Assembly: GCA_024400305.1 (NCBI GenBank)
Contig: JAKSMX010000028.1
Coordinates: 1 to 39,970, forward strand
DNA length: 39,970 nt
Reading direction: 5' to 3'
Source of the DNA: Bacteroidales bacterium
Lineage (GTDB): Bacteria > Bacteroidota > Bacteroidia > Bacteroidales > F082
Shown here: positions 4,113 through 39,899 of the stretch, one piece after another
Layout: each line of letters starts with the position of its first letter
Numbering within the stretch: position 1 is the stretch's first letter
Made by a program: the position numbers and the translations under genes
Notes under the pieces: generated by a model
The model's input: only the letters and a program-made list of their open reading frames with translations
What the model was told of the DNA's origin: nothing
Databases searched by the model: none

Positions 4113-4333
4113 ATATAAGCGAACAAGATTTCAAATATATGGTTGAGGGCGCGACAGCAGACTTGATCCGTTTGTTGATAGAACGTAAGGACTACGATAT
4201 GAAATCGGCAGTTGATGCAGTGTATCAATCTGAGACTTATGCCGCACTCAACCGTCCTCAAACCGGCTTATATTATCAAAGTTCCGGTTATCTTTTTGAC
4301 TATTTGTTAGAGGAACTCGGAGTCCGTGCTTAA
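4109..4333 (+). CDS. small conserved protein, partner in a DUF3990/DUF3791-type locus
   Basis: This 74-residue protein contains DLIRLLIERKDYDMKSAVDA, VYQSETYAAL and TGLYYQSSGYLFDYLLEELG. Short proteins with this LYNSETFxxLxxPxTGLYFQS-like pattern are common in Bacteroidota and Firmicutes and often sit beside DUF3990 and DUF3791 genes. It is soluble and probably alpha-helical. It is coupled to the upstream ORF by an ATGA overlap. Its stop codon is followed after three bases by a minisatellite. Function is unknown; by context it may be an antitoxin-like or accessory component. Confidence 0.6.
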   Translation: MNISEQDFKYMVEGATADLIRLLIERKDYDMKSAVDAVYQSETYAALNRPQTGLYYQSSGYLFDYLLEELGVRA

Positions 4334-4336
4334 TCC

Positions 4337-4546
4337 TAACTCTTCGGGAAGATGTCCTGAGCCTTCGGGAGGGTGTCCGAACTCTTCGGGAAGGTGTCTG
4401 AACTTTTCGGGAAGATGTCCGAACTTTTCGGGAAGATGTCCGAACTCTTCGGGAGGGTGTCCGAACTCTTCGGGAGGGTGTCCGAACTCTTCGGGAAGAT
4501 GTCCGAACTCTTCGGGAAGGTGTCTGAACTCTTCGGGAAGATTTCA
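4337..4546. repeat. minisatellite, ten 21-bp units
   Basis: Ten tandem units of exactly 21 bp begin three bases after the stop codon at 4331-4333. Each has the core ACTCTTCGGGAAG followed by a variable (A/G)TGTCC. Units 1, 2 and 10 are the most diverged. Variation is mostly transitions (AAG/GGG, CTC/TTT). Because 21 is divisible by three, several frames stay open: NSSGRCP and SELFGKV on the plus strand, TFPKSSD and RRVRTSS on the minus strand. I do not regard any of these as shown to be a gene. Confidence 0.9.
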
Positions 4547-4583
4547 AAAAAATAATCGGGGTGTTTTTTCTGAAAAAATATAC

Positions 4584-4591
4584 TATCTTTG
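4584..4591 (+). promoter_or_regulatory. orphan -7 box
   Basis: TATCTTTG followed by CAGCG is a good promoter element, but the only ORF behind it is an eight-codon one (ATG at 4623, stop at 4647-4649). It may be the remnant of a lost gene. Confidence 0.4.
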
Positions 4592-4697: not shown

Positions 4698-5330
4698 TCA
4701 CATATACCATCCTGAAAGTTGGAGATAACATATTTCTTCATCTTCAGAATTTTCAGGCTTCCACCAATGGGCAAGCGAAAGTCTCAACAAAGTGCCGATT
4801 GGAATATTTCCCAACGGATTTTCGAAACCAACAAATGGTATTGAATAACCCCATCGGTTCGTGAAATCTTTATATCTGAATCGTACTTTCCCATTATAAT
4901 CATTTCTTGACAAATCATGGTCGGCAATCCAGAAACAAGTGCTGTTTTGTGGTACATTGTCTTTATTTATGTACAATTTACCCGTTTCGTTCTTGACAAT
5001 TTTGTTTTCAAATACATTCCCTATATTTCCGGTGTAAATAGTTGCGCCACTGTCACGAATTGCATCACACATGCTTGATGCGGGCAGGGTCTCAACAAAA
5101 TTCCTTTGAAGTACTCTTACATCTTCTGAATGAGGCAAAGGCCTGATGTTGATTTTACAATAGTCAATGTTCCAAATATCCTTAATGTTGTATGGGCATT
5201 CATCTTTACTTTCGTGATAACCATTGTGGTTAAACAAACGTATTGGAGTTCCATTTTCCAAATCGATGCCACTGACACATACCATGTCGTTCTGCATCTT
5301 GGTTCTTGATACTATTAAAACTTTATTCAT
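4698..5330 (-). CDS. dual OB-domain protein linked to DUF488 genes
   Basis: The 210-residue protein starts MNKVLIVSRTKMQNDMVCVSG and IDLENGTPIRLFN, and continues with CPYNIKDIWNIDYCK and the C-terminal GTLLRLSLAHWWKP. I recognise it as the dual OB-containing family that is often encoded next to DUF488 genes. OB folds usually bind nucleic acid or nucleotides, but no activity is known to me for this family. It is the last gene of a three-gene minus-strand operon, 31 bases after the second DUF488 gene. There is no signal peptide or membrane segment, so it is cytoplasmic. The family call is moderately sure; a role in nucleic-acid or conflict biology is inference. Confidence 0.7.
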   Translation of the reverse strand: MNKVLIVSRTKMQNDMVCVSGIDLENGTPIRLFNHNGYHESKDECPYNIKDIWNIDYCKINIRPLPHSEDVRVLQRNFVETLPASSMCDAIRDSGATIYTGNIGNVFENKIVKNETGKLYINKDNVPQNSTCFWIADHDLSRNDYNGKVRFRYKDFTNRWGYSIPFVGFENPLGNIPIGTLLRLSLAHWWKPENSEDEEICYLQLSGWYM

Positions 5331-5361: not shown

Positions 5362-5841
5362 TTACAGATGTATTATTTCATAGTTGTATTTTCTTTGTAA
5401 TTCATTGGCGACCAACGACCTGTGACATGCGCAGGCTTTCTCTTCCACGCATAGCAGCACGACATTTTGGGCGTTCATCTTTTTCAATTCTGATACAAAG
5501 TTGTCGAAATCAAAATTGCTGAGTATCTGCTTGCAATATTCATTGGCGAAGACTTGTCCGAGTTTGTTACGGAACCTTTTGAGTTCTCCTGTCCGTGCAT
5601 CCTCCGACTTTTGTTTCTCCCTGATTTCTGAAGTCGGAGCCAACTTCTTTATATGCAGGTAGTTAATTCGCATCTCAGCTAATTTATTCTGAAGATGAGT
5701 GCTGTTTGAGAAGGCGTATTCTCGGCCTCTCACGCCGCGACGCTGGCGAATATCACAAAATGTATCTATGTGATTGTCTGACAGTTTGTTGAAAAACTGT
5801 TCTTCAGTGGAATTATAAACTCCCAATGTAAATATCTTCAT
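5362..5841 (-). CDS. DUF488 family protein (second copy)
   Basis: With the start at MKIFTLGVYNS the product is 159 residues. The frame is open upstream to 5967, but that part lies inside the preceding gene and would be a long overlap. The chosen ATG gives a 29-base overlap, typical of coupled genes. Family marks are the N-terminal TLGVYNSTEEQF, DTFCDIRQRRGVRGREYAFS and the C-terminal VVLLCVEEKACACHRSLVAN with the conserved CHR. DUF488 is a small alpha/beta family of unknown biochemistry. The copy is complete but only distantly similar to its neighbour, so the two are not a recent duplication. Confidence 0.8.
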   Translation of the reverse strand: MKIFTLGVYNSTEEQFFNKLSDNHIDTFCDIRQRRGVRGREYAFSNSTHLQNKLAEMRINYLHIKKLAPTSEIREKQKSEDARTGELKRFRNKLGQVFANEYCKQILSNFDFDNFVSELKKMNAQNVVLLCVEEKACACHRSLVANELQRKYNYEIIHL

Positions 5842-6394
5842 TCTGTTCTGCGTATGCTTTTCTTGACATGAAATTTGTTTCTTCACCGAATAAATCAACA
5901 GTTCCAAGTCCTTTTGTGACTTCCAACATAACCTCCGACTGCGTTTTTGCTTTGCCGATGCCGACAATATGATTCAGCACGACGCCTCGTTTCAGCAATT
6001 CCTGCCCGACGAGTTTGCTTCTGTGGCACATCGACGGATTCGATTCGCTGCACATGATAGCCAACCTGATGCTTTTCTCATTTGCAACAATCAGACGTTC
6101 CATGCCTTTTATAAAAAATGCCTTTTTCCCGAGTTTCTCATAGTCAATATGTCCGTCGGTATAGCATGAAGGGTCGCTTGGCAGTCCGCCGATGGCGTCA
6201 CCCATATATATATACGCGAAGCCTGCATTTCTCATAAGCATCTGCAGTCTTTCTCGGTTAAAGTCTGGATTCCATTTTGAATACGGCTTGGTGCGAATAT
6301 CGGCAAGATATTGAATGTCAAAAGATTTTAATTCGTTTTTGAATTCTTCGATACTCTTGCTGCCATGTCCGATTGAGTATAATGTTGATTCCAT
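5813..6394 (-). CDS. DUF488 family protein (first copy)
   Basis: This 193-residue protein begins MESTLYSIGHGSKSIEEFKN and has the conserved SIGHG, YLADIRTKPYSKWNPDFN, MGDAIGG and the C-terminal IMCSESNPSMCHRSKLVGQE. These are the standard DUF488 motifs (TIGHS, DVR..P.S, C.E....CHR). The extra C-terminal 45 residues (VTKGLGTVDLFGEETNFMSR...) are seen in many members. It is the first gene of the operon with the second DUF488 and the dual-OB gene, and a promoter lies 20 bases upstream. The two DUF488 paralogues may form a heteromer, which is inference from their coupling. Confidence 0.85.
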   Translation of the reverse strand: MESTLYSIGHGSKSIEEFKNELKSFDIQYLADIRTKPYSKWNPDFNRERLQMLMRNAGFAYIYMGDAIGGLPSDPSCYTDGHIDYEKLGKKAFFIKGMERLIVANEKSIRLAIMCSESNPSMCHRSKLVGQELLKRGVVLNHIVGIGKAKTQSEVMLEVTKGLGTVDLFGEETNFMSRKAYAEQNEDIYIGSL

Positions 6395-6480: not shown

Positions 6481-6966
6481 TCATGCAATTTTTCTATAAA
6501 GTGAATTTATCATGGATTCCGACATGCTGAGCAAATTCTGCTCGTCTGCATATTTTCCGGATAATTGGAGTTGAGTCGCCATGTGATCTTTCAGCATTAT
6601 TTTTGTTTGTGATCTGGCGAAATTCTCATTGAATTTTATCCATTCTGAGCCACCCCATTTTCTTGAACAAATTAATCGGGGTGTTCTTTCGTTCCAACCA
6701 AATATTTTTATTCCATTTAAGAAAGTGTGCTTGTATCCCTCTCCAATGTCATAACACACTATCAGACGTTCAGAAGCCTGTATCACTTGATAGTAAGTGT
6801 TGCCAGCTCGACTCGTATAACCTCTTGTGAGGAATATGTTTTTGTCCGGAATATAGGTCCACAGACTTCCGGTGATTACCGGCAGTTTTGAATTTCTGAA
6901 CTCGGTTAGTTCTGATGTTGTAATGGTGACGCTGTTGTTGCATTTCTCATTTTTCACGATTTCCAT
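6481..6966 (-). CDS. unrecognised 161-residue protein
   Basis: I do not recognise this protein. The frame extends to a TTG at 7002, but that codon overlaps the -7 box, so the start is taken as the ATG at 6966 (MEIVKNEKCNNSVTITT). It is soluble, with aromatic-rich segments (SLWTYIPDKNIFLTRGYTSR, WNERTPRLICSRKWGGSEWI) and a helical C-terminus (LSMSESMINSLYRKI). There is no signal or membrane segment. Its upstream region is a 90-bp direct repeat of the region upstream of the WYL regulator at 13074, which suggests common regulation or shared origin. It stands alone between the DUF488 operon and the exonuclease VII-like gene. Confidence 0.6.
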   Translation of the reverse strand: MEIVKNEKCNNSVTITTSELTEFRNSKLPVITGSLWTYIPDKNIFLTRGYTSRAGNTYYQVIQASERLIVCYDIGEGYKHTFLNGIKIFGWNERTPRLICSRKWGGSEWIKFNENFARSQTKIMLKDHMATQLQLSGKYADEQNLLSMSESMINSLYRKIA

Positions 6967-6991
6967 AACGGTGTATTTTGTTTTTACACTG

Positions 6992-6999
6992 CAAAAATA
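6992..6999 (-). promoter_or_regulatory. promoter of the unrecognised 161-residue gene
   Basis: TATTTTTG on the minus strand, followed by CAGTG, with a 25-base leader to the ATG at 6966. The 90-bp direct repeat begins only 7 bases upstream. Confidence 0.6.
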
Positions 7000-7006
7000 C
7001 AAAGGT

Positions 7007-7096
7007 GGTGCGAAATGGATGTTCGTGGTTGGAAATTGTTAAAATTTGTCATAAATTATCAATATGAATATCGTTTTCTGATTCTTCTTTAAATCT
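7007..7096. repeat. direct repeat A (about 90 bp), proximal copy
   Basis: The sequence from GGTGCGAAATGGATGTTCGT to TTCTTCTTTAAATCT recurs in the same orientation at 13109-13198. By hand alignment about 80 of 90 positions match without a gap. Weaker similarity continues 10-15 bases toward the promoter. Both copies lie immediately upstream of a minus-strand promoter and bound a 6-kb block. Confidence 0.9.
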
Positions 7097-7240
7097 TGAT
7101 TCCCATTCATTGATGCAGTGATAATTGTCATTTATTGACTCAACAAAATTAGTCAACAAAGCCGAAAATAACGATAGTGTTTTAAATTTGTGTTTGCAAG
7201 GTTTAATATCATTGTTTTATAAAGTTGTTTCATACATTTC
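7097..7240. other. 3' spacer of the exonuclease VII-like gene
   Basis: AT-rich and without an ORF. It contains a small inverted repeat, TTGACT and AGTCAA, around 7136-7157 that could form a weak hairpin on either strand. There is no strong terminator. Confidence 0.35.
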
Positions 7241-8647
7241 TTACAATATTAAACCAAGAATGGCAACTACAGTCAACACTGCAATGACAATAATGTAACC
7301 TATATTTTCATGTTTATTATTCTCAAGTTCTGCAACCCGCTGTTTTGCCAGCATCAAGTCATTGGTCATTTCCGAAACAGATGTTTGGAATGCTTTGTTG
7401 CTTTCCTGCATTTGACCAAGGCTTTTGTTGAACTCTTCTTGTTGTCTTTTCTGTTGTTCTTGAAGGTCTGTCAAGGTCTTTCCCTGTGTCTTCAATTGTT
7501 CCTGCAACTGGGAATTTGCCTTCTGCAAAGTTTCATTCTGCGTTTTATGGAGTTTGTTTGCCTCTTCAGTGGCGTTTTTGTGTTGCTCGGTCATTTCTTT
7601 CACGACCTTTTCATGTTCTTTTTGTGCTTCGGTAAGTTCCTCAATCTTCTTATTAGAAATTTCGGTCTGTTCCTTGTTCTGTTTTTGAAGAATTTCTAAC
7701 TGTTTTGTTAGTTCCTGGTTCTTTTTGTTAGAGTCATCAATCTGTTTCTTGAACTGACCTTCAACTTCTTTCACCAAAGCTGCACGCGAATTGTTGCGTT
7801 TTTGAATGACCTCCTCTGTGATGTCGCGGAAATATGTCCCTAATGCATGAGGTATGGCCATTGCTTTATCTGCAATATTCATGATAAATAGTTTTTCGCC
7901 TTCATGACCGGCACCATACATCCACGCAGTATTCATATTCACCAATGTTTCAAGAAGTTCAACTTCGTCCAACGCATCAAGTCCTGCACCACCACCACGT
8001 ATTATGGCGATGATATCAAAGCCCATTTCGTCAAGCTCTTTTAATTTTTTGCAGAATGCATTGGTTTTTGCAAATGACTCTCTGTATTCAGTGAAATCCA
8101 TATAAGTACGGGCAGCTTGTACACCCTTTTCAAAATCTTCTTGAGTGATACTTGTCTCCGCATATACCAATGCCACCTTCGGACGTTTATCCTGATACAG
8201 AAGCGATTCAAGGATGTTGTCAACATTTTTGAAGCCTTTTTCTGATTTGATGCGACGAAGTTCTGCGCGTTTTAAATCATCTTCGGACACAGCCAACTCC
8301 TTTATTTTTTCAACGCCAGTAACCTTCAGTACAATCTGAATAAATCCCTTGTTGGTGATAGATCGATCAAGTATTCCGTTGACGGTAATGACATTACCGT
8401 TATCAAAGTCGTCACGTAAGCCCAATGGCATTGCGATTGCAATCTCATCGCTGGTGCATTCGTCAACAAGTCGGTCGTTTGCCGTGTGGAAATACTGGTT
8501 GATATATGTGCCTTTGAAATATACTCCACGCAGGCATATAACCTTCTGGTTTACCTGGCCGGCAGCCAAGTGGTTGCGAAGTATGCCGATAACCTCCGAT
8601 GGCCTGAAGAGATTGGCAGATGCTGGTGTGTTTGCAGATTCAGACAT
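7241..8647 (-). CDS. XseA-like (exonuclease VII large subunit-like) protein with coiled coil and C-terminal membrane anchor
   Basis: The 468-residue protein has three parts. Residues 12-112 look like the N-terminal OB fold of exonuclease VII large subunits (FRPSEVIGILRNHL, GNVITVNGILDRSITNKGF). Residues 155-280 resemble the XseA catalytic region: KVALVYAETS, IIAIIRGGGAGLDALDE (RGGG at 217-220), YGAGHEGEKL (GHE at 247-249), then IADKAMAIPHALG where XseA has its AD..A.TP.AA segment. Residues 290-440 are one long Gln/Glu/Lys-rich coiled coil, and 446-468 is a single hydrophobic segment (IGYIIVIAVLTVVAILGLIL) ending the chain. Housekeeping XseA has helices but no terminal membrane anchor and works with XseB, which is not seen here. 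The gene has its own promoter. I infer a membrane-tethered nuclease or sensor, possibly anti-phage. Confidence 0.75.
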   Translation of the reverse strand: MSESANTPASANLFRPSEVIGILRNHLAAGQVNQKVICLRGVYFKGTYINQYFHTANDRLVDECTSDEIAIAMPLGLRDDFDNGNVITVNGILDRSITNKGFIQIVLKVTGVEKIKELAVSEDDLKRAELRRIKSEKGFKNVDNILESLLYQDKRPKVALVYAETSITQEDFEKGVQAARTYMDFTEYRESFAKTNAFCKKLKELDEMGFDIIAIIRGGGAGLDALDEVELLETLVNMNTAWMYGAGHEGEKLFIMNIADKAMAIPHALGTYFRDITEEVIQKRNNSRAALVKEVEGQFKKQIDDSNKKNQELTKQLEILQKQNKEQTEISNKKIEELTEAQKEHEKVVKEMTEQHKNATEEANKLHKTQNETLQKANSQLQEQLKTQGKTLTDLQEQQKRQQEEFNKSLGQMQESNKAFQTSVSEMTNDLMLAKQRVAELENNKHENIGYIIVIAVLTVVAILGLIL

Positions 8648-8696
8648 AATTTGTATCAGTGATTTGGTTTAAAGTAGCAGCGTCAATCCACTTCAT
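8640..8696 (-). other. possible 18-codon upstream ORF
   Basis: On the minus strand an ATG at 8696 opens 18 codons (MKWIDAATLNQITDTNYV). The stop lies out of frame just after the start codon of the exonuclease VII-like gene (8647), so translation of one could affect the other. It is very short and may be chance. Confidence 0.25.
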
Positions 8697-8727
8697 ATTA
8701 AATCCTATTTTTAACATTTCACATCTG

Positions 8728-8735
8728 CAAAATTA
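8728..8735 (-). promoter_or_regulatory. promoter of the exonuclease VII-like gene
   Basis: TAATTTTG on the minus strand followed by CAGATG fits TAnnTTTG. It gives an unusually long leader of about 80 bases containing the possible upstream ORF. Confidence 0.5.
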
Positions 8736-8809
8736 GTACAATAATCTGAATTGTAAATAAAAATTTACAAATAAAGGTTGCAAATAATTTATTTGTGAAA
8801 TTTGAATTT

Positions 8810-9856
8810 TTAACCAATCAACCTATTAACACAATCCCCGATATAAAATTTAGGAAATTCTTCACCTATTTCATCAATAGATTTCAAATCATTTTTATTT
8901 GCAAATCTTTCAGCTTCCTCTAACAAATTTGTATATGCTTCATCAAGCCAATTCAAGGTGTTCTGCAAAAATGGATAACATATACTGATTGTTGTGGTTT
9001 TGCAAGATTTATTTCCGGAAAACAAATCAAAGCCGCCACCGCAACCAATCCACATGTTATTTGTTACTATTGCCCTATCATGGAAGCCATTTTTTTCACA
9101 TTTATAAATTGTAATTTTTAAATCATGTTCAGTCCAACCATTGCGCTTGATTAAAATCCCTTTTTTTAAATCATCAAATCTGTTTTTTGCTTGATTTTTC
9201 ATATCGTAAGTGAAAATTGATAAATGAAAGGGAATATCCATTTTTTTCTTTGGTATCAAAATATCAAGAATACGCATTAAATTCTCATCAATTTTCTTGG
9301 TGTCAGCAAGAATGTAATTATCAACAATTATCAATGAATTACATGGGTGTTCTATCACATTTTCAAGATTTTTCCAGCTGTATTTTTTATCAATATTATT
9401 CTTTTTTATTGCAACACCATTGTCTTTAAACAAAAAATCAGCGTTCATGGTGGAATCAGTGTTAAACGCCATTATTCCAAATTTTTCCGCTATATTTTTA
9501 CAACCCACTGAATCCAAACACGTAAAATAAACTGATTTTAAACATGAATCCGATATTGATTCTTTTGATAACTTATTTAATTCGGGGAAGTCGTCACCAT
9601 CGCAGGATAATTTGCAATAGCCACCTGTATGTTTTTTCCAAAGAATCCTCAACGAATCATCTTCCGCCATATTATCCTTTAGTTGTAGAAAATTTATGTC
9701 AAAATGTAAGTCAGATTTGCAGATGAAATCATATATGTTTATCCAACATTGCATCTTTTTTATAAGTGATTCGTCTGGCGCAATAACTTTTGGAAAGTAT
9801 TCAGAAAACCTCTTCCAGAATTCATATTCACAATAAACTATTTTTCGTGCTACCAT
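8810..9856 (-). CDS. ATPase-coupled partner with an HDR (PLD-like) C-terminal region
   Basis: I do not know a name for this 348-residue protein. It follows the AAA ATPase gene after a single base and is clearly co-translated. The C-terminal half has SLIIVDNYILAD (about 175-186), a PFHLSIFTYDMKNQ strand-helix region, LKITIYKC, and then FHDRAIVTNNMWIGCGGGFD (H259, D260, R261, G271-D277). An HDR followed about 10 residues later by a Gly-rich turn is the pattern of degenerate phospholipase D-like domains found in several effector proteins. The N-terminal 130 residues are unassigned. There is no membrane segment. Most likely it is the effector or substrate-binding partner of the ATPase; nuclease activity is speculative. 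Confidence 0.6.
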   Translation of the reverse strand: MVARKIVYCEYEFWKRFSEYFPKVIAPDESLIKKMQCWINIYDFICKSDLHFDINFLQLKDNMAEDDSLRILWKKHTGGYCKLSCDGDDFPELNKLSKESISDSCLKSVYFTCLDSVGCKNIAEKFGIMAFNTDSTMNADFLFKDNGVAIKKNNIDKKYSWKNLENVIEHPCNSLIIVDNYILADTKKIDENLMRILDILIPKKKMDIPFHLSIFTYDMKNQAKNRFDDLKKGILIKRNGWTEHDLKITIYKCEKNGFHDRAIVTNNMWIGCGGGFDLFSGNKSCKTTTISICYPFLQNTLNWLDEAYTNLLEEAERFANKNDLKSIDEIGEEFPKFYIGDCVNRLIG

Positions 9857-9857
9857 G

Positions 9858-11957
9858 TTATTTCCCGGCTTTTATTGTTAAAAGATCCATTGACAAGTTG
9901 TCGGCTTCATCAAAAAATCCACTACCAAAAGGCTCTTTCAAACAGCCATCATCTTTAATGTTAATCCTTTTAACCTGCTTCTCATTCTTTGGACGTTCAT
10001 CAGGGTTAGGACTATACAAATAATTTATTGAAACATCATTTGCTGACACCCCCTTTTCGTTGTTCTTTAAATTACTCGCAACTATAGTCTGCAATTTCCT
10101 AATCAAATATTCACTGTGAGTCTCAATTACGAAACGGACATTATAAGTCTTATATGCATCAACAAATATATCAGCAAGCATAGATTGATAACGTGGATGA
10201 AGATGAATCTCTGGTTCTTCTACTGCAATAACAGTCGGCTCAAGTTTTTCTTCGGATCCATCAAATGTCGAGAAGGATTTAAAAATATTTGTTCTGTTAG
10301 TTTTTGCCTCCATTATTGAAGTCTCAATCTGAAGCAAGATCGAAACCAATTGTGTGAGCCCATATCCTTCATCAGCAAGAAGATGTCTCTCAAAATCATC
10401 ATTGCCTTTGCATAGATAGGCAAGTGTTCCGAGACCTTCCTCTGTTGATCTAAACACGATAGAATTGCCAATACCAAAATTTCTAAACCATTTGTTCAGG
10501 AATGTATCTGGCTTATAATTTTTTTTGCAATTCTTTTTCGCATCCATATATCTTTGTATGAGAATCCCAAATTCGTTTGATTTGTCTCCAATGTTATACA
10601 AACGCTGAACAACAGCACGAGACGATGAAACATAATCAGTATTTGCGTATGATGTGAAAATGTCTTTTATAAAGTCAACGAAGAACAAATAAACATATAT
10701 GTATGACGAGAACATGCATTCTTTATCATTTCCTGATGATAATATTGATAGCACAGACGATGCGTCAATGCAAACATCTCGCTTAATATGCTTATTATAT
10801 GATTCCGAATAGTAAATTATAAGATCTTCATAAATCTCTTCCGCAGTATCTTCAAGCTTGGGGTATTCTTTAGGCACGTTGCGAAGCTGATTATCCCAAA
10901 AATAATAATTATATGAAATCGTTGGGATATTGAACAAATCAATCACGGGATCATGTTCTTTTAGAAAAAGTGACAGTCTGCTTTCTTCACAAGTTGTAAG
11001 ATATTCAGCAAGTGTGATTGAATTTGAATTTTTGTATCCATCAATAAATTTATTGAAGACTACCTTATGAATTAAATTTTCATGAAAATATTCCAATGCT
11101 TTTTGAACTTTTTCAGCAAGAAAATCAATCGTTTTAGACTTGTCATGTGCGATTCCAAGCTCATCAAGTTCGTCAAAAATACTCGGATTATAAAACAACC
11201 CACAATTTGATAAGCGGCAGGCAAGATTCCATGCATTAGTAACATTATATTTTTCACCTTTTGTGCGTAAATCATCAATATAATTGTATAAAACAGATGT
11301 TTTGATATTATCGAAATAATTGTATAAAACAGACCTCTCACACTCATTTATAGAGTTGTCATTATCAACATTTTTACTGATATCATTGCCATATTTATCT
11401 CCATGAAAATTTTTCCGCTCAGCCAAAAACGCACATTTCATTTTCGTGTAGTTTATGAAATTGCGTCTGATGCATCTTACGTTTATTGTCTTGATTTTAA
11501 TTCCGCCGTCAACTATTTTTGCCGCAAAAATGCATGTGCCGTCCATTTTGAAGATTTCCATGTCAGACAACCATCCATAATTCATTTCGTCGCTGTCCGA
11601 TGAAACGAAAGATAATTTCAAAGACACATCTTCAACCAAAACACGTGATCCCAATGTGTATTCAAAAGAAATCTTGGCGTTTTTCTCGGCTTTTTTGTTT
11701 AACACCAAATCGTATTTTCCGAGATTATATCGTAATTTTGAAAAATCAAGTTTGTACTTTGGAAGCTCACATCTGTTCCAGTTCACTATGTCATTTTTTA
11801 TGTCATTCATAACATCAGAGAACAACATTATTGCCTTAACTATGGAACTTTTGCCGGAACTGTTACATCCGGTCAAAATAGTAACTGGCGCAAGTTCAAA
11901 AGTTGCACCTTCTTCGTCAAACACCTTGAAATTTTTAATTGTAAATTTTGGATTCAT
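9858..11957 (-). CDS. AAA ATPase, DUF3696 type (OLD/SMC-like)
   Basis: This 699-residue ABC/SMC-like ATPase has Walker A GCNSSGKSS (30-38), Walker B IAVEEPEIHLHP (about 577-588) with the catalytic Glu, and a switch histidine in ETHSEYLIRKL (H614). The C-terminus INIKDDGCLKEPFGSGFFDE is the DUF3696 mark. A long insert of some 400 residues between the Walker motifs probably forms the helical arm. Such ATPases without a TOPRIM domain are common in defence islands and usually act with an adjacent effector, here the gene starting one base downstream. Its own promoter lies at 11999-12006. Base composition is clearly more AT-rich than the surrounding core genes, which suggests transfer. Confidence 0.85.
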   Translation of the reverse strand: MNPKFTIKNFKVFDEEGATFELAPVTILTGCNSSGKSSIVKAIMLFSDVMNDIKNDIVNWNRCELPKYKLDFSKLRYNLGKYDLVLNKKAEKNAKISFEYTLGSRVLVEDVSLKLSFVSSDSDEMNYGWLSDMEIFKMDGTCIFAAKIVDGGIKIKTINVRCIRRNFINYTKMKCAFLAERKNFHGDKYGNDISKNVDNDNSINECERSVLYNYFDNIKTSVLYNYIDDLRTKGEKYNVTNAWNLACRLSNCGLFYNPSIFDELDELGIAHDKSKTIDFLAEKVQKALEYFHENLIHKVVFNKFIDGYKNSNSITLAEYLTTCEESRLSLFLKEHDPVIDLFNIPTISYNYYFWDNQLRNVPKEYPKLEDTAEEIYEDLIIYYSESYNKHIKRDVCIDASSVLSILSSGNDKECMFSSYIYVYLFFVDFIKDIFTSYANTDYVSSSRAVVQRLYNIGDKSNEFGILIQRYMDAKKNCKKNYKPDTFLNKWFRNFGIGNSIVFRSTEEGLGTLAYLCKGNDDFERHLLADEGYGLTQLVSILLQIETSIMEAKTNRTNIFKSFSTFDGSEEKLEPTVIAVEEPEIHLHPRYQSMLADIFVDAYKTYNVRFVIETHSEYLIRKLQTIVASNLKNNEKGVSANDVSINYLYSPNPDERPKNEKQVKRINIKDDGCLKEPFGSGFFDEADNLSMDLLTIKAGK

Positions 11958-11998
11958 ATTTATATACTTTTAATTTTATTTCTTTATATTCATCGCTG

Positions 11999-12006
11999 CA
12001 AAATTA
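11999..12006 (-). promoter_or_regulatory. promoter of the ATPase/HDR operon
   Basis: TAATTTTG on the minus strand followed by CAGCGATG, 41 bases before the ATG at 11957. Confidence 0.55.
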
Positions 12007-12045
12007 CACCTTATCCGCGAAACCAAACTTCGCAGTTGATATTAT

Positions 12046-13074
12046 TTATGATGTTTTTTCGTATTTTTCCATCAATTCGCAAACTCTTCGTTTCATCTCA
12101 TCTTTCAACGATGTCGGCTCCAGTACAATCACGCCGCGATACGACATGAGAACATTCATCAATTCAATGTTGATTATCAATTTGTAATGGTAAAACTTGC
12201 CGCCGTTTAACATCGGATATTTCTCTCTCAAAATCTCATTGTTGAAAATACAGACCGACTCTTGTGATTTGTGTATTGGCTTGGTGTCGATGTATTTATA
12301 TGTGTTGTCGTCAGCCCAGATAAGAATATCGATAGGCTCGGCATCTTGGGGCAATGTCACTCCGACAATGTTTTCAAAGCGTTTGTCGAGTTCTCCTGTT
12401 TCATGTTTGCAATTAATATGGTTGTTTATGATGAATTCTTCAATTCTGTCAAGAGCAAAATTACAGATAAATCCGTCCTCGTTCATTTTTGCAATCAGAA
12501 ACCAACGGTTGTTGAACTGTTTGAGCATCAATGGGGAAACGCTGTAAATATTTGCGTTTTCAGCACCAAATTTCTTGTAAGAAAGGTCGATTGCCTTTCT
12601 TGCCGCTATTACCGAAAACAGTCTTGACAGCATGTTTTCTTTCATGACAAGGTTCGGATTACTCTCGAAATCGAGTATTGTTTCCTTTTTTTCTATGTTC
12701 AGGGATTTTTTAAGGTCATCAAGCCACTCGAAACCTTCAATGCTCAAGCCGCCGACAACGTTAAGTAGTTCTGTGAGCAGATGTTTTTCGTCGTTAGTCA
12801 ACTTTGGCTTGAATATTGAAAATGTTGGGTCCTTGTAATAATTCACCAATCGCTTTCCTTCGTATTCACTTACGATTTCGGCGTTGAACGGTGGCATTTT
12901 CATGTCGTTCAAGTCATTTTGATACGTTTTGATGTCAACTGTCGGTTTGTCGCTGTTTTCCAAGTATTTGTTGCATTCATCACAAATCTCTCTGGTTGTG
13001 TAGTGATTCGATTTGCTTTTCAACATGTCATCAATGAACATATACCTTATGACAGCGTTCTTGTTAGTGGCCAT
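12046..13074 (-). CDS. WYL-domain transcriptional regulator
   Basis: Taking the ATG at 13074 (MATNKNAVIRYMFIDDM) gives 342 residues. The longer frame to 13095 starts on a TTG that overlaps the promoter. Residues 1-75 form a winged HTH (YTTREICDECNKYLENS). The WYL domain lies at about 130-205 (RKAIDLSYKKF, YSVSPLMLKQFNNRWFLIAK, FALDRIEEF), followed by a WCX-like C-terminal region (about 225-340). WYL proteins are ligand-sensing regulators frequently found in defence islands, where they often repress neighbouring operons. This one is at the upstream edge of the island. Its promoter region shares a 90-bp repeat with the 161-residue gene at 6481, so control of both is a reasonable inference. Confidence 0.85.
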   Translation of the reverse strand: MATNKNAVIRYMFIDDMLKSKSNHYTTREICDECNKYLENSDKPTVDIKTYQNDLNDMKMPPFNAEIVSEYEGKRLVNYYKDPTFSIFKPKLTNDEKHLLTELLNVVGGLSIEGFEWLDDLKKSLNIEKKETILDFESNPNLVMKENMLSRLFSVIAARKAIDLSYKKFGAENANIYSVSPLMLKQFNNRWFLIAKMNEDGFICNFALDRIEEFIINNHINCKHETGELDKRFENIVGVTLPQDAEPIDILIWADDNTYKYIDTKPIHKSQESVCIFNNEILREKYPMLNGGKFYHYKLIINIELMNVLMSYRGVIVLEPTSLKDEMKRRVCELMEKYEKTS

Positions 13075-13092
13075 ATTCTTCTGAATTTTTTG

Positions 13093-13100
13093 CAAATATA
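13093..13100 (-). promoter_or_regulatory. promoter of the WYL gene
   Basis: TATATTTG on the minus strand, 18 bases before the ATG. Direct repeat B begins 8 bases upstream. Confidence 0.6.
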
Positions 13101-13108
13101 CGAAATAT

Positions 13109-13198
13109 GGTGCGAAATGGATGTTCGTGGCTGGAAATTATCAATGTTTGTCATAAATTATCAATACGAATCTCGGCTGCTGATTCTTCTTTAAATCT
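13109..13198. repeat. direct repeat B (about 90 bp), distal copy
   Basis: Same orientation and length as repeat A at 7007-7096, with about 10 mismatches. Homology stops sharply at both ends: at the -7 box on one side, and after TTTAAATCT on the other. The IS3-like element begins only two bases further on. Confidence 0.9.
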
Positions 13199-13272
13199 GG
13201 TGTAATGGACAAAAATTAGGCTTTTTCGGAGTGTCTTACCCTGAAAAAAGTTGACTCACAAAAGAGTCAAAT

Positions 13273-14274
13273 ATGTACAAATTACACACAAAGAAACAGG
13301 AGTTGTACTTCGATGAAGTGATAAGGCTCCACTATGAGAAGGGCTACGGAGAGGACAGGATTTCCACAATTATTCCGGTCGGACATACGACAGTGAACCG
13401 ATGGATTCGTATCTTTGCAGCCGGAAAAGAAACGGAAAAGACAGTCATGCCTGAGACAAAAATCAAAGAGAAGAGGAAGATTTCGGAGTCTGCGGAGTCC
13501 GAGACGGTGTCCAGAGCCGAGTACGAGAGACTGAAGGCGGCTCAGGAGTCGTTCGCGCCGGGATACGTCCGCAGTGTCAGGGAGCGCGACCCCGGCATCG
13601 GAGGTGTGAAGCTGTGGATGATGTACGTGAAGGCGTTCGCCGCGGGCCATCCGATGGGGCGCGACCGCTTCTGCGAGATGATTGACAGGTACGACCGGAA
13701 GATACGCCGCAGGATACGTGCCCCGCGCACGACAGACTCCGGCCACGGTCTGCCGACGTACCCAAACCTCGTGAAGTCGTTCATCCCAGCTGCGCCCAAC
13801 CAGCTGTGGGTCATCGACATGACATACATAATGATAACGCTCGGAGACGGCTGTGCGTTCTGCTACCTGACGATGGCTTTCAAGCGCATTGAAGGGCTTC
13901 AGGCCGTCCCAATCCATCACTCCGACCGCGGATGCCAGTATGCGAGCCGCGAGTATGTCGGCAGGTTGAAGGACCGCGGAATATCGATAAGCATGACCGA
14001 GTGCGGCGACCCCAAGGACAACGCGCAGGCCGAGCGCGTGAACAGCACCATGAAGAACGAGTTCCTCAAAGGAATGGTGTTCCATGACATCTGCGATGTC
14101 AGGCGTGCCGTCAGCCGCGCGGTGGACTTCTACAACAACGAGCGTCCGCACATGAGCCTTGACATGATGATACCAGCCGAGGCATCGTCACGGACAGGCG
14201 AGATCGCCAGACGCTGGAGGAGCTACCGGCAGGAGGCGATAAAAAAATCAGCGGCATGTGCCGGATGTGACTGA
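13273..14274 (+). pseudogene. IS3-family transposase, fused OrfAB with internal deletions
   Basis: The product begins MYKLHTKKQELYFDEVIRLH with an HTH (GYGEDRISTIIPVGHTTVNR), the OrfA part, then passes into an OrfB integrase core: APNQLWVIDMTYI (first Asp), PIHHSDRGCQYASREY (second Asp) and KDNAQAERVNSTMKNEF (Glu). Between CYLTMAFKR and IEGLQAVPIHHSDRG about 35-40 residues that normally hold central strands of the RNase H fold (around DAYSRKIVG in relatives) are missing. The OrfA-OrfB junction, AAQESFAPGYVRSVRERDPG, is also shorter than usual. All three catalytic residues remain but the fold should not form, so the enzyme is probably dead even though the frame is open. Codon use is GC-rich compared with the AT-rich island beside it. 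Confidence 0.75.
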
Positions 14275-14291
14275 AAAAGGTTTACCTTTGC

Positions 14292-19235: not shown

Positions 19236-19255
19236 TTTAACACAAGTTGCACGAG
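19236..19255 (-). repeat. dispersed AACTTGTGY doublet, copy used as gene 3' end
   Basis: On the minus strand the sequence is AACTCGTGCAACTTGTGTTA plus flanking A, a doublet of the 9-mer found at 35144, 35167 and 36970. Here it encodes the last six residues (NSCNLC) and the stop codon of the glycosyltransferase. Confidence 0.8.
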
Positions 19256-35143: not shown

Positions 35144-35186
35144 CTTGTGCAACTTGTGTTAAAAAACTTGTGCAACTTGTGTTAAA
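35144..35186 (+). repeat. two copies of the dispersed AACTTGTGY doublet
   Basis: The 20-bp core CTTGTGCAACTTGTGTTAAA occurs at 35144-35163 and 35167-35186, the second ending 9 bases before the glnS start codon. Each copy is itself a doublet of AACTTGTGC and AACTTGTGT. Confidence 0.85.
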
Positions 35187-37006: not shown

Positions 37007-38209
37007 ATGATAGACAGCAACTTTATAGAAAATTTATACACCAATCTTCCGGAGGAGACGCGTCATTATCTTGACATCGCCATCGAGAAGGTTGTGGAGG
37101 CGAAACGGAACGGCGGCAAGGTCGTTGTCGTGACGGGCAGCGGCCCCAACATCCATGAAGGTGTCACCACGCTCATTGCGGAGTTCATCAACAAAGGCCT
37201 CGTTGACGGTGTCACCACGAGTTCGGCGGTCGTCTCCCACGAAATGGGCGGCGTGCTCGACAAGGTGAAACGCATCAACATCCACGAGATCGGCGAAGAG
37301 TTCTTGGATTTCAGCAAGATGCCGCGCGGCGACATCTTCGAGCTTACCGAACTCACTGACACACAATGGGATGAGCTTAAAAAAGAAATGATTATCAACG
37401 ATGCTCTCGTTGAGCGTTGCAAGGAGAAAGACGGCGCCGTCATCATCAAGGCGGCGGGCAACATGGCGTATCCGATGGGACTTCGCAACGAGACACTCGC
37501 CCCCGTCATCATGGAGATGGCGCACACAAGGCACGTGCCGTTCGAGGAGGTCGCCGGCTGGGGCTGCGACGAACACACCATGCTCGGAGCAGGCGCCCGT
37601 AAAGGCGTGCCGGTGCTCGTCAGCGTGCCGCAGCTCATCGGCGGCGGACAGGTCGGGATAAGCATCGCCGACAGCATCCCCGTGTCGGAACGCTGCTACA
37701 GGATCTCACGTATGCTCGGCGACGCAGACGTCATCATCGAGTCGGCGGTGGCACTGACACAGGAAATCCACGACGGGCCGTTTGAGACTTACACCGGCCA
37801 CGGCATCTGGGCATCGTGGAACGGATTCAAGACATACAGCCTGAAAGACAAGACACTCATCCGCTTCGACCTCGACGAGAACCTCAAGAAGGCCTGGGAC
37901 TTGGACAAGAAGTCGGGCGAGGTGCAGGCCGCCATCGACAAAGGGCTGCCGAAGACGAAGATGTCGAAAATCCCGTTCAGGATGGAGATGTCGGCGTTCT
38001 CACGTCTCGAGAAGTCGATACCTGTCATCGGCGACATCGGAGTGCTCTGGTCTGTAATGGGTTACAAGGTCGCGAAGGCACTCGGCGTGGAACTCGAATA
38101 CATCAGCTATCCGCAGCAGACCGAGCCTGGCAAGGCGATGCGACAGTGGATCGTCGATAACGTCGATTACATGAAAATGGACAAAATAAGACAATGGCTT
38201 TGCTCTTAA
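37007..38209 (+). CDS. conserved 400-residue protein of unknown function
   Basis: I do not recognise a named family. The protein is soluble, with no signal peptide. It shows KVVVVTGSGPNIHEGVTTLI (about 38-57), followed by GLVDGVTTSSAVVSHEMGG, then VIIKAAGNMAYPMGLRNETL, VAGWGCDEHTMLGAGARKGV and SVPQLIGGGQVGISIADSIP, several glycine-rich turns suggesting a nucleotide-binding alpha/beta fold. The segment K-V-V-V-x-G-x-x-x-x-H-x-G...L-I...G-x-V-D loosely recalls the C-terminal domain of the LOR/SDH (TIGR00300) proteins and also deoxyhypusine-synthase-like folds. The likeness is weak. It is followed by an ECF-type S component gene, so a link to a vitamin or metabolite is possible. Its TAA stop is the first bases of a 14-bp tandem array. 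Confidence 0.55.
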   Translation: MIDSNFIENLYTNLPEETRHYLDIAIEKVVEAKRNGGKVVVVTGSGPNIHEGVTTLIAEFINKGLVDGVTTSSAVVSHEMGGVLDKVKRINIHEIGEEFLDFSKMPRGDIFELTELTDTQWDELKKEMIINDALVERCKEKDGAVIIKAAGNMAYPMGLRNETLAPVIMEMAHTRHVPFEEVAGWGCDEHTMLGAGARKGVPVLVSVPQLIGGGQVGISIADSIPVSERCYRISRMLGDADVIIESAVALTQEIHDGPFETYTGHGIWASWNGFKTYSLKDKTLIRFDLDENLKKAWDLDKKSGEVQAAIDKGLPKTKMSKIPFRMEMSAFSRLEKSIPVIGDIGVLWSVMGYKVAKALGVELEYISYPQQTEPGKAMRQWIVDNVDYMKMDKIRQWLCS

Positions 38210-38276
38210 AGTGTTGAGAGTGAAGTGTTAAGAGTGAAGTGTTAAGAGTGAAGTGTTAAGAGTGAAGTGTTAAGAG
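38207..38276 (+). repeat. tandem array, five 14-bp units
   Basis: Units of TGAAGTGTTAAGAG in direct tandem; the first unit is TAAAGTGTTGAGAG, whose TAA is the stop codon of the upstream gene. Confidence 0.9.
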
Positions 38277-38305
38277 TTTAGATAATTAATTAAAAGTTAA
38301 AAGAA

Positions 38306-38812
38306 ATGGAAAAAGAAATCAGATTGTATAACCTCGGTTTCAGTGAGGTTAAGACTTATTTATTCGCGGCTTTGTTCGTTGCGGGCAACATCCTTCTGCC
38401 GCAGCTCTGCCATTTGGTCCCCGACGGCGGTCACATCTTCCTGCCGATATATTTCTTCACGCTCATCGCGTCTTACAAATACGGCATGAAGGTCGGCTTG
38501 CTGACGGCGGTGTTGTCGCCGGCGGTCAACAGTCTCCTTTTCGGGATGCCAGCCGCCGCTGCCGTTTCAGGTATCATGATAAAATCAATCTTCCTCGCCG
38601 TGTCAGCCGCATGGATTGCCGAAAAGTCAAGCAAAGTGTCGCTTTCCACAATCCTCGCAGTCGTCTTGGCGTATCAATTCTTCGGCACGATGGCCGAATG
38701 GCTCATGGAAGGCTCACTCATCGCAGCCGCCACCGATTTCCGCCTCGGCGTTCCCGGAATGCTCATCCAGTGGATCGGCGGATGGTTCCTTTTGAGAAGT
38801 GTGAAGTGTTGA
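38306..38812 (+). CDS. ECF-type transporter S component-like membrane protein
   Basis: The 168-residue integral membrane protein has about five to six hydrophobic segments: TYLFAALFVAGNILLPQLCH, GGHIFLPIYFFTLIASYKYG, GLLTAVLSPAVNSLLFGMPA, IMIKSIFLAVSAAWIA, ILAVVLAYQFFGTMAEWL and a last one to LLRSVKC. Size and layout fit the substrate-binding S component of energy-coupling-factor (vitamin) transporters; the substrate cannot be read. No ECF ATPase or T component is nearby, as is usual when these are shared modules. Its stop codon lies inside the first unit of a 40-41-bp tandem array, so its last residues (RSVKC) are repeat-encoded. Confidence 0.65.
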   Translation: MEKEIRLYNLGFSEVKTYLFAALFVAGNILLPQLCHLVPDGGHIFLPIYFFTLIASYKYGMKVGLLTAVLSPAVNSLLFGMPAAAAVSGIMIKSIFLAVSAAWIAEKSSKVSLSTILAVVLAYQFFGTMAEWLMEGSLIAAATDFRLGVPGMLIQWIGGWFLLRSVKC

Positions 38813-38918
38813 GAATTGAGAGTGAAGTTTGTATTTTAGTGTGAAGTGTTGAGAGTTGAGAGTGAAGTTTGTTTTTTTAGTGTGAAGTGTTGAGAGTTGA
38901 GAGTGAAGTTTGTTTTTA
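38798..38918 (+). repeat. tandem array, three 40-41-bp units
   Basis: Units begin AGTGTGAAGTGTTGAGAG, continue with TTGAGAGTGAAGTTTG and end in a T run of variable length. The GTGAAGTGTTGAGAG word is shared with the 14-bp array at 38207. The first unit covers the end of the upstream gene. Confidence 0.9.
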
Positions 38919-38942: not shown

Positions 38943-39320
38943 ATGGAACAAAATACAGTTAAGTTTAAAAGCAAGGTATTTGCCAAAAATATCATTTTTC
39001 TATATCAAAAAATTTTGGCGGGAAAAAGAGAATATGTCTTGTCGAAACAACTACTAAGGTGTGGAACAAGCATAGGCGCAAATCTTGCCGAATCAGAATG
39101 TGCAATAAGTATAAATGATTTTTTGTCAAAAGTTTATATTTCATTAAAAGAAGCATCAGAGACAATATTCTGGCTTGACCTGCTTCATGAAACCGGATAC
39201 ATTTGTATAAATGATTACACAAGACTGAAAAAAGATTGCGAAGAAATTAAAAGGATGCTATCAGCGACCACCAAAACTATAGTAACCAAACTTAAAACAT
39301 CAAAACAAACTAACAACTGA
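38943..39320 (+). CDS. four-helix bundle protein (23S rRNA intervening-sequence type)
   Basis: The ATG at 38943 (MEQNTVKFKSKVFAKNIIFL) gives 125 residues. The frame from 38910 starts in repeat sequence. The pattern LLRCGTSIGANLAESECAIS, INDFLSKVYISLKEASETIF and WLDLLHETG is the signature of the four-helix-bundle family first described as the open reading frame in 23S rRNA intervening sequences. Many Bacteroidota carry free-standing chromosomal copies. Its function is unknown; structurally characterised members form pentamers. It is flanked by two unrelated tandem arrays, and its TGA stop is the first three bases of the downstream one. Base composition is AT-rich relative to neighbours, which suggests transfer. 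Confidence 0.88.
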   Translation: MEQNTVKFKSKVFAKNIIFLYQKILAGKREYVLSKQLLRCGTSIGANLAESECAISINDFLSKVYISLKEASETIFWLDLLHETGYICINDYTRLKKDCEEIKRMLSATTKTIVTKLKTSKQTNN

Positions 39321-39473
39321 ACAACAACTCCACTCTTCACCCTCAAAACTCCAAACTGAACAACAACTCCACTCTTCACCCTCAAAACTCCAAACTGAAC
39401 AACAACTCCACTCTTCACCATCAAAACTCCAAAATGAACAACAACTCCACTCTTCACCATCAAAACTCCAAAA
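39318..39473 (+). repeat. tandem array, four 39-bp units
   Basis: Four exact-length units (39318-39356, 39357-39395, 39396-39434, 39435-39473) begin TGAACAACAACTCCACTCTT and contain CACCCTCAAAACTCC or CACCATCAAAACTCC. The first TGA is the stop codon of the upstream gene. Thirteen codons per unit keep a minus-strand frame open (HFGVLMVKSGVVV), which I regard as a by-product. Confidence 0.92.
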
Positions 39474-39482
39474 TGAACTAAA

Positions 39483-39899
39483 ATGCTAAACACTGCCAAA
39501 ACCTTATTAAAAACCAGAAACTTCACTTTAGTGGCAATCTCTTCCGATAAAGAGGTTTTCACGTCTTCCGACCGCGGCGTGAAGCCATTGCTCCATCTTT
39601 TGGAAAACGAAAAGGATTTCCTGAAAGGCGCTTCGGTGGCCGACAAGGTCATCGGGAAGGCTGCGGCGCTGCTCATGGTCTTGGGCGGGATAAAGGAAGT
39701 CCACACCAACGTCATCTCCGAGCCGGCGGCGGAAATCTTTGAAAAACACAATATTACCTTCTTTTTCGACAAGAAAGTTGAGCGCATCATCAACAGGAAA
39801 GGCGACGGCCTCTGCCCGATGGAGACGCTGTGCATCGATGTCGAAGAGCCGAGCGAGGCGTTCGAGAAGATAAAGGAGTGGCTGGAAAAACACAATTAA
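39483..39899 (+). CDS. DUF1893 family protein
   Basis: The 138-residue protein contains GASVADKVIGKAAALLMVLG, IKEVHTNVISEPAAEIFEKH and INRKGDGLCPMETLCID, the conserved blocks of DUF1893. Family members adopt a cytidine-deaminase-like fold, but the cysteine and histidine ligands expected for a zinc deaminase are not obvious here beyond the LCPME motif. Soluble and cytoplasmic. The start codon follows the last unit of the 39-bp array by 9 bases, with no recognisable promoter or ribosome binding site between. Confidence 0.8.
   Translation: MLNTAKTLLKTRNFTLVAISSDKEVFTSSDRGVKPLLHLLENEKDFLKGASVADKVIGKAAALLMVLGGIKEVHTNVISEPAAEIFEKHNITFFFDKKVERIINRKGDGLCPMETLCIDVEEPSEAFEKIKEWLEKHN

Follow-up and report, generated by a model that had tools for sequence, protein, structure and literature searches.

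A WYL regulator and its predicted palindromic operator at three promoters of a defence-like block in a Bacteroidales genome, two of them within a duplicated 90-bp region

The closest described parallels to the locus considered here are the WYL regulators BrxR and CapW, and, in the accessible text of the reports on them, BrxR of E. fergusonii pEFER has an operator with 11-bp half-sites and a spacer of 5, as well as a putative R-BOX2 at a second promoter (PMC9122601). The half-sites of Acinetobacter BrxR are also spaced by 5 and lie at -51 to -27, over the -35 element (PMC9122589), while the palindromes of CapW, 19-24 bp long, lie over the -10 element, and expression of its cyclic-oligonucleotide-based antiphage signalling system (CBASS) goes up on infection (PMC9122588). 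In the literature found, as far as its accessible portions go, WYL repressors with mapped operators are proteobacterial; the BrxR family as delimited by BLAST (E below 1e-5 to BrxR) is 97% proteobacterial, the term "bacteroid" being absent from the accessible part of PMC9122601; and neither a WYL operator nor a multi-operon WYL regulon from the Bacteroidota was found in the literature searched, which included accessible text of PMC12839542 and left most subscription papers outside. Here we describe a stretch of 39,970 nucleotides from a Bacteroidales bacterium of family F082 (assembly GCA_024400305.1, contig JAKSMX010000028.1, positions 1 to 39,970 of the forward strand; "the window" means this whole stretch), in which three promoters are very probably under shared regulation by an adjacent WYL regulator, through a palindromic operator found at two of them within 90-bp direct repeats.

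The layout resembles that of BrxR in that a WYL gene heads a defence island and inverted repeats with a 5-bp spacer lie at its own promoter and overlap it, to judge from the accessible text (PMC9122601, PMC9122589), and in that there is more than one site, the second putative site in pEFER serving a second transcript (PMC9122601). However, the half-sites differ from those of BrxR, there are three sites here, one of them apparently copied with a 90-bp promoter, and the proteins are distantly related in sequence, with a profile match to BrxR (7qfz) at E 0.0014. With CapW, which represses a defence operon, the locus shares a palindrome at the promoter and a WYL protein that would act as a dimer, whereas the CapW sites described in the accessible text lie over the -10 element of one CBASS locus and the present ones would lie over the -33 region of several operons (PMC9122588). 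RptR is likewise one small repressor for a defence island but, as far as the accessible report goes, it is a non-WYL protein whose 6-bp palindromes form direct repeats at a single promoter (PMC12255303). By analogy, the Bacteroidales island may be regarded as a variant of the BrxR kind with several operons per regulator.

The two repeats lie 6102 bp apart in the same orientation and agree without gaps at 80 of 90 positions, matching the value of about 80 given in the original prediction, which had been made from the letters of the window alone; a repeat search of the window extends the pair (family D5) over 96 nt at 88%, and BLAST within the source genome joins them at E 2.1e-28. Both copies contain CACGAACATCCATTTCGCA, which ends 9-10 nt ahead of a TAnnTTTG box, a sequence that we take to be the Bacteroidota -7 box type. 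On the minus strand the likeness ends where the repeat ends, 7 or 8 nt ahead of the box, within the 7-9 bases proposed earlier, and the sequences 3' of the two boxes are unrelated, as had also been noted. A third site of the same palindrome type and box, without the 90 bp and overlooked in the earlier account, stands before an AAA15 ATPase gene at 11999-12032. The elements concerned are the following.

13111-13129, minus strand: operator 1, CACGAACATCCATTTCGCA, of the WYL promoter, found by matrix and pattern scan; it would imply autoregulation
13093-13100, minus strand: -7 box TATATTTG of the WYL promoter, 8 nt beyond the repeat
12016-12034, minus strand: operator 2, TGCGAAGTTTGGTTTCGCG, before the AAA15 gene, with a TAATTTTG box at 11999-12006
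7009-7027, minus strand: operator 3, CACGAACATCCATTTCGCA, the same as operator 1, before the p161 operon, with a TATTTTTG box at 6992-6999, 7 nt beyond the repeat
7007-7096, minus strand: repeat copy A, the upstream region of the p161 operon, from repeat search, within-genome BLAST and ungapped alignment
13109-13198, minus strand: repeat copy B, the upstream region of the WYL gene, made up of the operator and a distal 68 bp and ending at insertion sequence (IS) remnants

The palindrome has the core CGAA-N7-TTCG and measures 19 bp with its flanks; in the window operator the core is a perfect inverted repeat, and the 6-bp halves, separated by a 5-bp spacer, differ at two positions. When the genome was searched for this core followed by a gap and TAnnTTTG, exactly three matches were obtained, all within the block (6992-7025 and 11999-12032, each of 34 nt, and 13093-13127, of 35 nt), and the reversed control gave none. 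A matrix made from 19 WYL promoters of the genus, with the window left out, ranks the repeat copies first in the window (score 17.1) and 12016-12034 next (14.2 on one strand and 13.2 on the other), and no other window site scores above 11.9.

Across the genus, a set of 99 genomes including the source genome, the sequence ahead of each WYL relative was compared with that around it, and 55 WYL matches served as reference points. A palindrome near TGCGAAAATAGATTTCGCA precedes the WYL gene in 19 of 20 genus loci, whose local identity is about 34-36%, and the twentieth (L129) has one once its gene start is corrected; a strict TAnnTTTG box follows the palindrome in 18 of the 20, L120 and L122 deviating. 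The exact 34-nt geometry occurs at 40 sites, 37 of them no more than 12 kb from a WYL gene, as against one of 31 sites with other spacings, namely the WYL promoter of the window itself; by estimate, WYL neighbourhoods make up roughly 0.5% of the DNA searched. Nineteen of these 37 sites are WYL promoters (one, in G019, at a partial WYL match) and 18 stand elsewhere in the islands, while of the three exact sites away from WYL genes, the one on contig C26 of G055 is 99 bases from the contig end.

Other WYL clades have palindromes such as TGTGCAATCGTATTGCACA, and this second class, searched for as TGCAA-N5-TTGCA plus the box, is found at 51 sites in the genus against 3 in the control. Of these sites, 31 have a WYL gene no more than 14 kb away (for 30 of them no more than 12 kb), in 10 islands with 2-4 sites each, and 20 are not near one; with the 34-nt geometry, 21 of 25 are near. 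The genome of the window has no second-class site, and G133 and G104 have islands of both classes, on different contigs. In the WYL promoters of 97 loci the arrangement of half-sites is inverted in 21, direct in 1, and mirrored or complement in none, the two mismatches in its half-sites keeping the window promoter out of the 21. Eleven of 20 clade promoters and 13 of 75 others have exact palindromes with a spacer of 5, compared with 0.6 and 1.6 in mononucleotide shuffles, and those with a spacer of 7 are also prominent (7 and 15, respectively) because longer or shifted palindromes nest. The earlier proposal of a shared regulatory region with WYL operators is therefore strongly supported, as the genome has the operator-box unit only at three promoters, all in the block, and the unit is also found at the WYL promoters and neighbouring operons of the genus.

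A number of results nevertheless count against this assignment. The 37 sites near WYL genes are partly circular as a test for 19 of their number, because the pattern was derived from WYL promoters that are also counted, and the 18 others together with the second class are the fairer test; a loose form of the pattern, moreover, is only mildly above its reversed control in the 99 genomes (71 matches vs 49). In a crude first test WYL genes and other genes were only weakly apart (25 of 96 vs 103 of 996, or 10 of 96 vs 62 of 996 at E below 1e-5), half-sites over whole loci are inverted in 155 cases but direct in 102 (mirrored 36, complement 27), and the cargo of L115 has no strict operator in front. 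Within the window, the score of 17.1 for the repeat operators lies under every genus site kept (22.1 to 32.8), and the AAA15 site exceeds the best chance site only modestly. The repeat operators are imperfect palindromes, with halves ACGAAC and GCGAAA, and they fail the one-mismatch palindrome test that was used on the loci and the AAA15 genes, while the distal 68 bp of the repeat are left unaccounted for by the operator. Finally, the WYL protein of the window is only 36-38% identical to the clade that defined the operator, and its recognition helix, DIKTYQND, departs from the helix-operator trend of WYL relatives.

Protein families were assigned by profile scans of Pfam, PADLOC and NCBIfam, and place the WYL regulator beside predicted defence genes. 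All genes of the block are on the minus strand, in the order WYL, AAA15, PLD-like partner, ExoVII-L-like, repeat A, p161, DUF488, DUF488 and DuOB. The p161 operon is thus not enclosed by the repeats, which are therefore not island boundaries.

12046-13074, minus strand: WYL regulator, 342 aa, ATG at 13074; Pfam PF13280 at E 2.1e-9, over the cut-off
9858-11957, minus strand: AAA15 ATPase, 699 aa; best PADLOC model NsnB at E 1.1e-41, DUF3696 slightly under its cut-off
8810-9856, minus strand: partner with an MIT_C/BrxL-like PLD domain, 348 aa; PF16565 at E 2.2e-6 and BrxL (C-terminus) at E 1e-6
7241-8647, minus strand: ExoVII-large-subunit-like protein, 468 aa, with coiled coil, C-terminal hydrophobic segment and its own upstream region
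6481-6966, minus strand: p161, 161 aa, not assigned to a family by Pfam, PADLOC or NCBIfam at the thresholds applied
5813-6394, minus strand: first DUF488 protein; PADLOC PDC-M45B at E 1.5e-50
5362-5841 (longer TTG frame to 5967), minus strand: second DUF488 protein; best PADLOC model PDC-M19A, then PDC-M45C
4698-5330, minus strand: DuOB (dual OB) protein, 210 aa; PF22557 at E 1.5e-16
13199-14275, plus strand: IS remnants, comprising the end of one element (to 13231) and, from 13232, the next element with an rve transposase gene at 13273-14274

The upstream region of the ExoVII-like gene, examined at 8641-8800, has different palindromes, TTGTAAATTTTTATTTACAA and ACAAATAAATTATTTGT, followed by a TAATTTTG box, and this gene may be under another regulator.

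In its structural model (mean predicted local distance difference test score, pLDDT, 79.9; predicted template modelling score, pTM, 0.40) the WYL protein is predicted to have an N-terminal winged helix-turn-helix, a WYL domain and a WCX-like C-terminal part, with helices at 12-26, 34-47 and 55-66, a hairpin at 74-87 and a C-terminal a/b part at 255-348 in P0005 numbering, positions to be read with the low pTM. Its profile matches in the PDB are PafBC (6sj9, E 3.9e-8), 8tp8 (E 8.9e-8), which we take to be DriD, then BrxR (7qfz) and 7tb5 (E 0.0093), which is presumably CapW. A simple helix-to-operator code was dropped, being a trend among relatives that the window protein breaks. A WYL dimer would bind three palindromes, at its own promoter and ahead of AAA15-PLD and p161-DUF488-DUF488-DuOB, each spanning, by reckoning from the presumed -7 box, roughly -40 to -20 with a centre near -30. 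Because these sites would cover the -33 region, bound WYL would block RNA polymerase both where its own gene is transcribed and where the defence operons are. Phage attack or DNA damage could then give rise to a ligand that occupies the WYL pocket and releases the protein, so that the separate defence modules would come on together.

By analogy, this regulation is likely to be repression, although sequence alone cannot separate repression from activation. Activation was kept as a rival because the profile matches to PafBC and 8tp8 are better than that to BrxR: WYL would then turn the operons on after DNA damage, as PafBC, SiwR or DriD do, SiwR being an example of a WYL activator, and no -33 element is evident inside the operator on reading the sequence. 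This we consider unlikely, since the site would be centred near -30 over the -33 region, as the Acinetobacter BrxR site at -51 to -27 lies over its promoter in the accessible account (PMC9122589), and since both BrxR of pEFER (PMC9122601) and CapW (PMC9122588), which stand beside defence genes, are described there as repressors. The repeat pair is quite probably a duplicated promoter region with the WYL operator as its working part, in a BrxR-like multi-operon regulon of the Bacteroidales.

How the repeat arose bears on the earlier alternative, a footprint of duplication or insertion around a 6-kb block. Duplication stands, and its unit is most simply the promoter and not the block: it is reasonably likely that the WYL promoter was copied ahead of the p161/DUF488 operon, or in the reverse direction, and the copying would have brought into the regulon a cassette that elsewhere has no WYL control. 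Insertion or recombination that set a WYL-AAA15-PLD-ExoVII block beside an existing p161 operon would agree with the two long direct repeats, which do flank those four genes as had been said, with the IS remnants next to copy B, and with the exchange of cargo beside WYL genes in relatives. We think it quite improbable, however: the repeats occupy equivalent positions relative to their promoters; the same palindrome type is present at a third, non-duplicated promoter; no integrase was seen in the block, and a search of the genus gave no p161 gene lacking the block. Nor was a genome with a single copy found, the repeat being absent from 172 other genomes of the family at E 1e-5 and 99 other relatives yielding no more than four matches, all short and marginal; a plasmid search with the repeat A region gave no match. 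Ninety bp are also too long for the usual target duplication. The occurrence elsewhere of DUF488-DUF488-DuOB without p161, WYL or operator likewise favours recruitment of the cassette by a copied promoter over insertion of an adjacent block.

A rather unlikely addition to a copied promoter is that the 90 bp hold another conserved element, such as the site of a second regulator or a leader RNA, with the palindrome only part of the selected sequence. Within the distal part, two stretches of 20 and 19 identical bases would fit this, but mismatches are not significantly clustered (p = 0.06 when the three longest runs are taken together, 0.47 with the longest alone and 0.17 by the sum of squares), and the distal part is not shared with the AAA15 upstream region (28 of 68 positions equal) or with the 172 other family genomes. 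Nor is the contrast significant between the proximal 22 bp, equal at 22 of 22 positions, and the distal part, equal at 58 of 68 (Fisher p = 0.11). The length and identity of the repeat, taken by themselves, are compatible with an ordinary interspersed repeat of no regulatory role, but this was rejected as extremely improbable, because the 2.86-Mb assembly has two copies only, and not the many scattered ones that would have told against the original prediction (next-best matches at E 0.24 or worse), and because the operator recurs with the regulator across the genus.

At the far end of copy B the likeness ends at 13198, where IS remnants that the earlier account had overlooked begin: the sequence 13198-13231 matches another place in the genome, an IS end follows at 13232, and this copy may therefore be truncated. 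The IS end at 13232 recurs on contigs C76, C3 and C75 of the genome. By eye, the rve transposase frame at 13273-14274 looks internally shortened, part of the core between the first and second acidic motifs being gone.

Judged from gene content, the WYL island of the genus is a hotspot whose flanks are conserved and whose cargo is exchanged. A YhcG nuclease gene (the Pfam type of L112, PDC-S02) is present in 18 of 22 islands tested, usually directly behind WYL and at 70-94% identity apart from the self match, and the PIF1-like helicase of L114 has long matches in 9 islands, several of them cut by the fetched end, with two more giving short matches only. Between these two genes the content varies, and many islands have operators ahead of the cargo that follows YhcG and ahead of PIF1. 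Reverse transcriptase cargo was found in six islands, alike in L104, L110, L111, L113 and L116 and distant in L123; an HATPase pair in three (L109, L114 and L119, the HATPase being 99.6% identical between L109 and L114); methylase-specificity genes of type I restriction-modification (RM) in two; a DrmD-like helicase in L115; and AAA15 with a PLD-like partner in others. The five similar reverse transcriptases (491 aa, 92-94% alike) begin about 340-360 bp past the WYL operator, a gap that may leave room for a retron-like RNA. The HATPase_c protein (about 815 aa) and its 430-aa partner without Pfam family, at 6952-9399 and 5626-6942 of L109, stand behind the WYL operator as a candidate defence pair.

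Relatives of the AAA15 ATPase occur in 12 of the 99 genomes at E 1e-30, in 11 (own included) near a WYL gene and in the twelfth, G020, at a contig end, and the PLD-like partner adjoins AAA15 also in L103, L112, L118, L120, L144, L155, L156 and L157. An operator lies close upstream of 8 of 13 AAA15 genes (the window, L103, L112, L118 twice, L120, L122 and L144), though it overlaps the called start in L122 and is about 165 bp away from one of the L118 genes; the AAA15 genes of L126, L137, L155, L156 and L157 have none within 150 bp; in L155 a GTGCAA site stands some 610 bp ahead of the gene, and L156 is cut by the contig end. No AAA15 operator belongs to a class foreign to the local WYL, a contrast clear only for L144 (GTGCAA) and L120 (GCGCAA), as the cargo sites of L103, L112 and L118 combine one GCGAA half with one GCGCAA half. 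By score the window AAA15 is closest to the copies of G021, G012 and G020, whose islands are of the GTGCAA class, whereas its own operator is of GCGAA type; with L144 it shares 49% over 263 residues. In the AAA15 tree it falls outside the supported clade of L103, L118, L112 and L120 (GCGAA/GCGCAA islands), its own position not being fixed, and the WYL tree signals a long-branch problem. Cargo exchange between operator classes is suggested by these relationships. NsnB, the AAA15/DUF3696 ATPase type with which this protein scores best, is one that we assign to Menshen along with NsnA and NsnC; unlike Menshen, the window has a two-gene unit with a PLD-like partner, and its neighbours gave no NsnA or NsnC match.

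Relatives of p161 were found in 2 of 392 other genomes of the order and in none of 98 other genomes of the genus; on plasmids there was one partial match (39% over 61% of the query) and in phages none. The p161-like genes of L101 (7347-8341) and L102 (8177-8683) stand directly ahead of PIF1-like genes, the helicase being named by eye, and a profile found no p161 in the genus WYL islands fetched that would mark it as a remnant of their PIF1-helicase module. DuOB relatives occur in 3 of the 392 order genomes, all of which keep the order DUF488-DUF488-DuOB (first DUF488 at 55-65% identity) with no p161, WYL match or operator of either class alongside, L161 showing just 245 bp upstream, while the window cassette stands behind p161 and the operator-bearing repeat copy. 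The DUF488 pair resembles PDC-M45 of PADLOC, the first protein matching PDC-M45B strongly and the second PDC-M45C; it differs in that DuOB is a third gene, p161 and a WYL-type promoter lie ahead and the second DUF488 scores better with PDC-M19A, and no further PDC-M45 model was matched among the nine proteins at E 0.1. A literature search on DUF488/DuOB and on Menshen/AAA15/PLD found nothing useful. Between a small gene and the DuOB gene, 4313-4585 holds at least nine 21-bp tandem units that are open in several frames; a p161 paralogue proposed from the likeness of 4543-4570 to 6663-6690 was dropped, no such frame being seen.

A wider and tentative picture, to which we give slightly less than an even chance, is that WYL islands are operator-addressed defence platforms, in which each WYL clade reads its own palindrome class, two islands of different class can coexist in one genome without cross-talk, and modules exchanged between conserved flanks (AAA15-PLD, reverse transcriptase, type I RM, helicases, HATPase pairs and DUF488-DuOB) are addressed by the operator, in the window by way of the copied 90-bp promoter. 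For the question of how bacteria hold many toxic defence modules silent yet raise them jointly, a short operator of fixed geometry predicts from sequence which operons of a Bacteroidales island share a regulator, a rule that the second operator class lets one check within single genomes. The operator can also mark p161, DUF488/DuOB and the HATPase pairs as candidates for a role in defence, and copying of the 90 bp is one way in which a foreign cassette could come under local control.

Elsewhere in the window, TTGTGCAACTTGTGTTAAA occurs three times, at 35144, 35167 and 36970, close in front of two genes, one for a Glu/Gln-tRNA synthetase (35196) and one of 400 aa that has no Pfam family (37007); a near-inverted copy lies at 19236. 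Repeat arrays are present at 39268-39501, with units of 39 bp, and at 38199-38915, with units of 14 and 40/41 bp.

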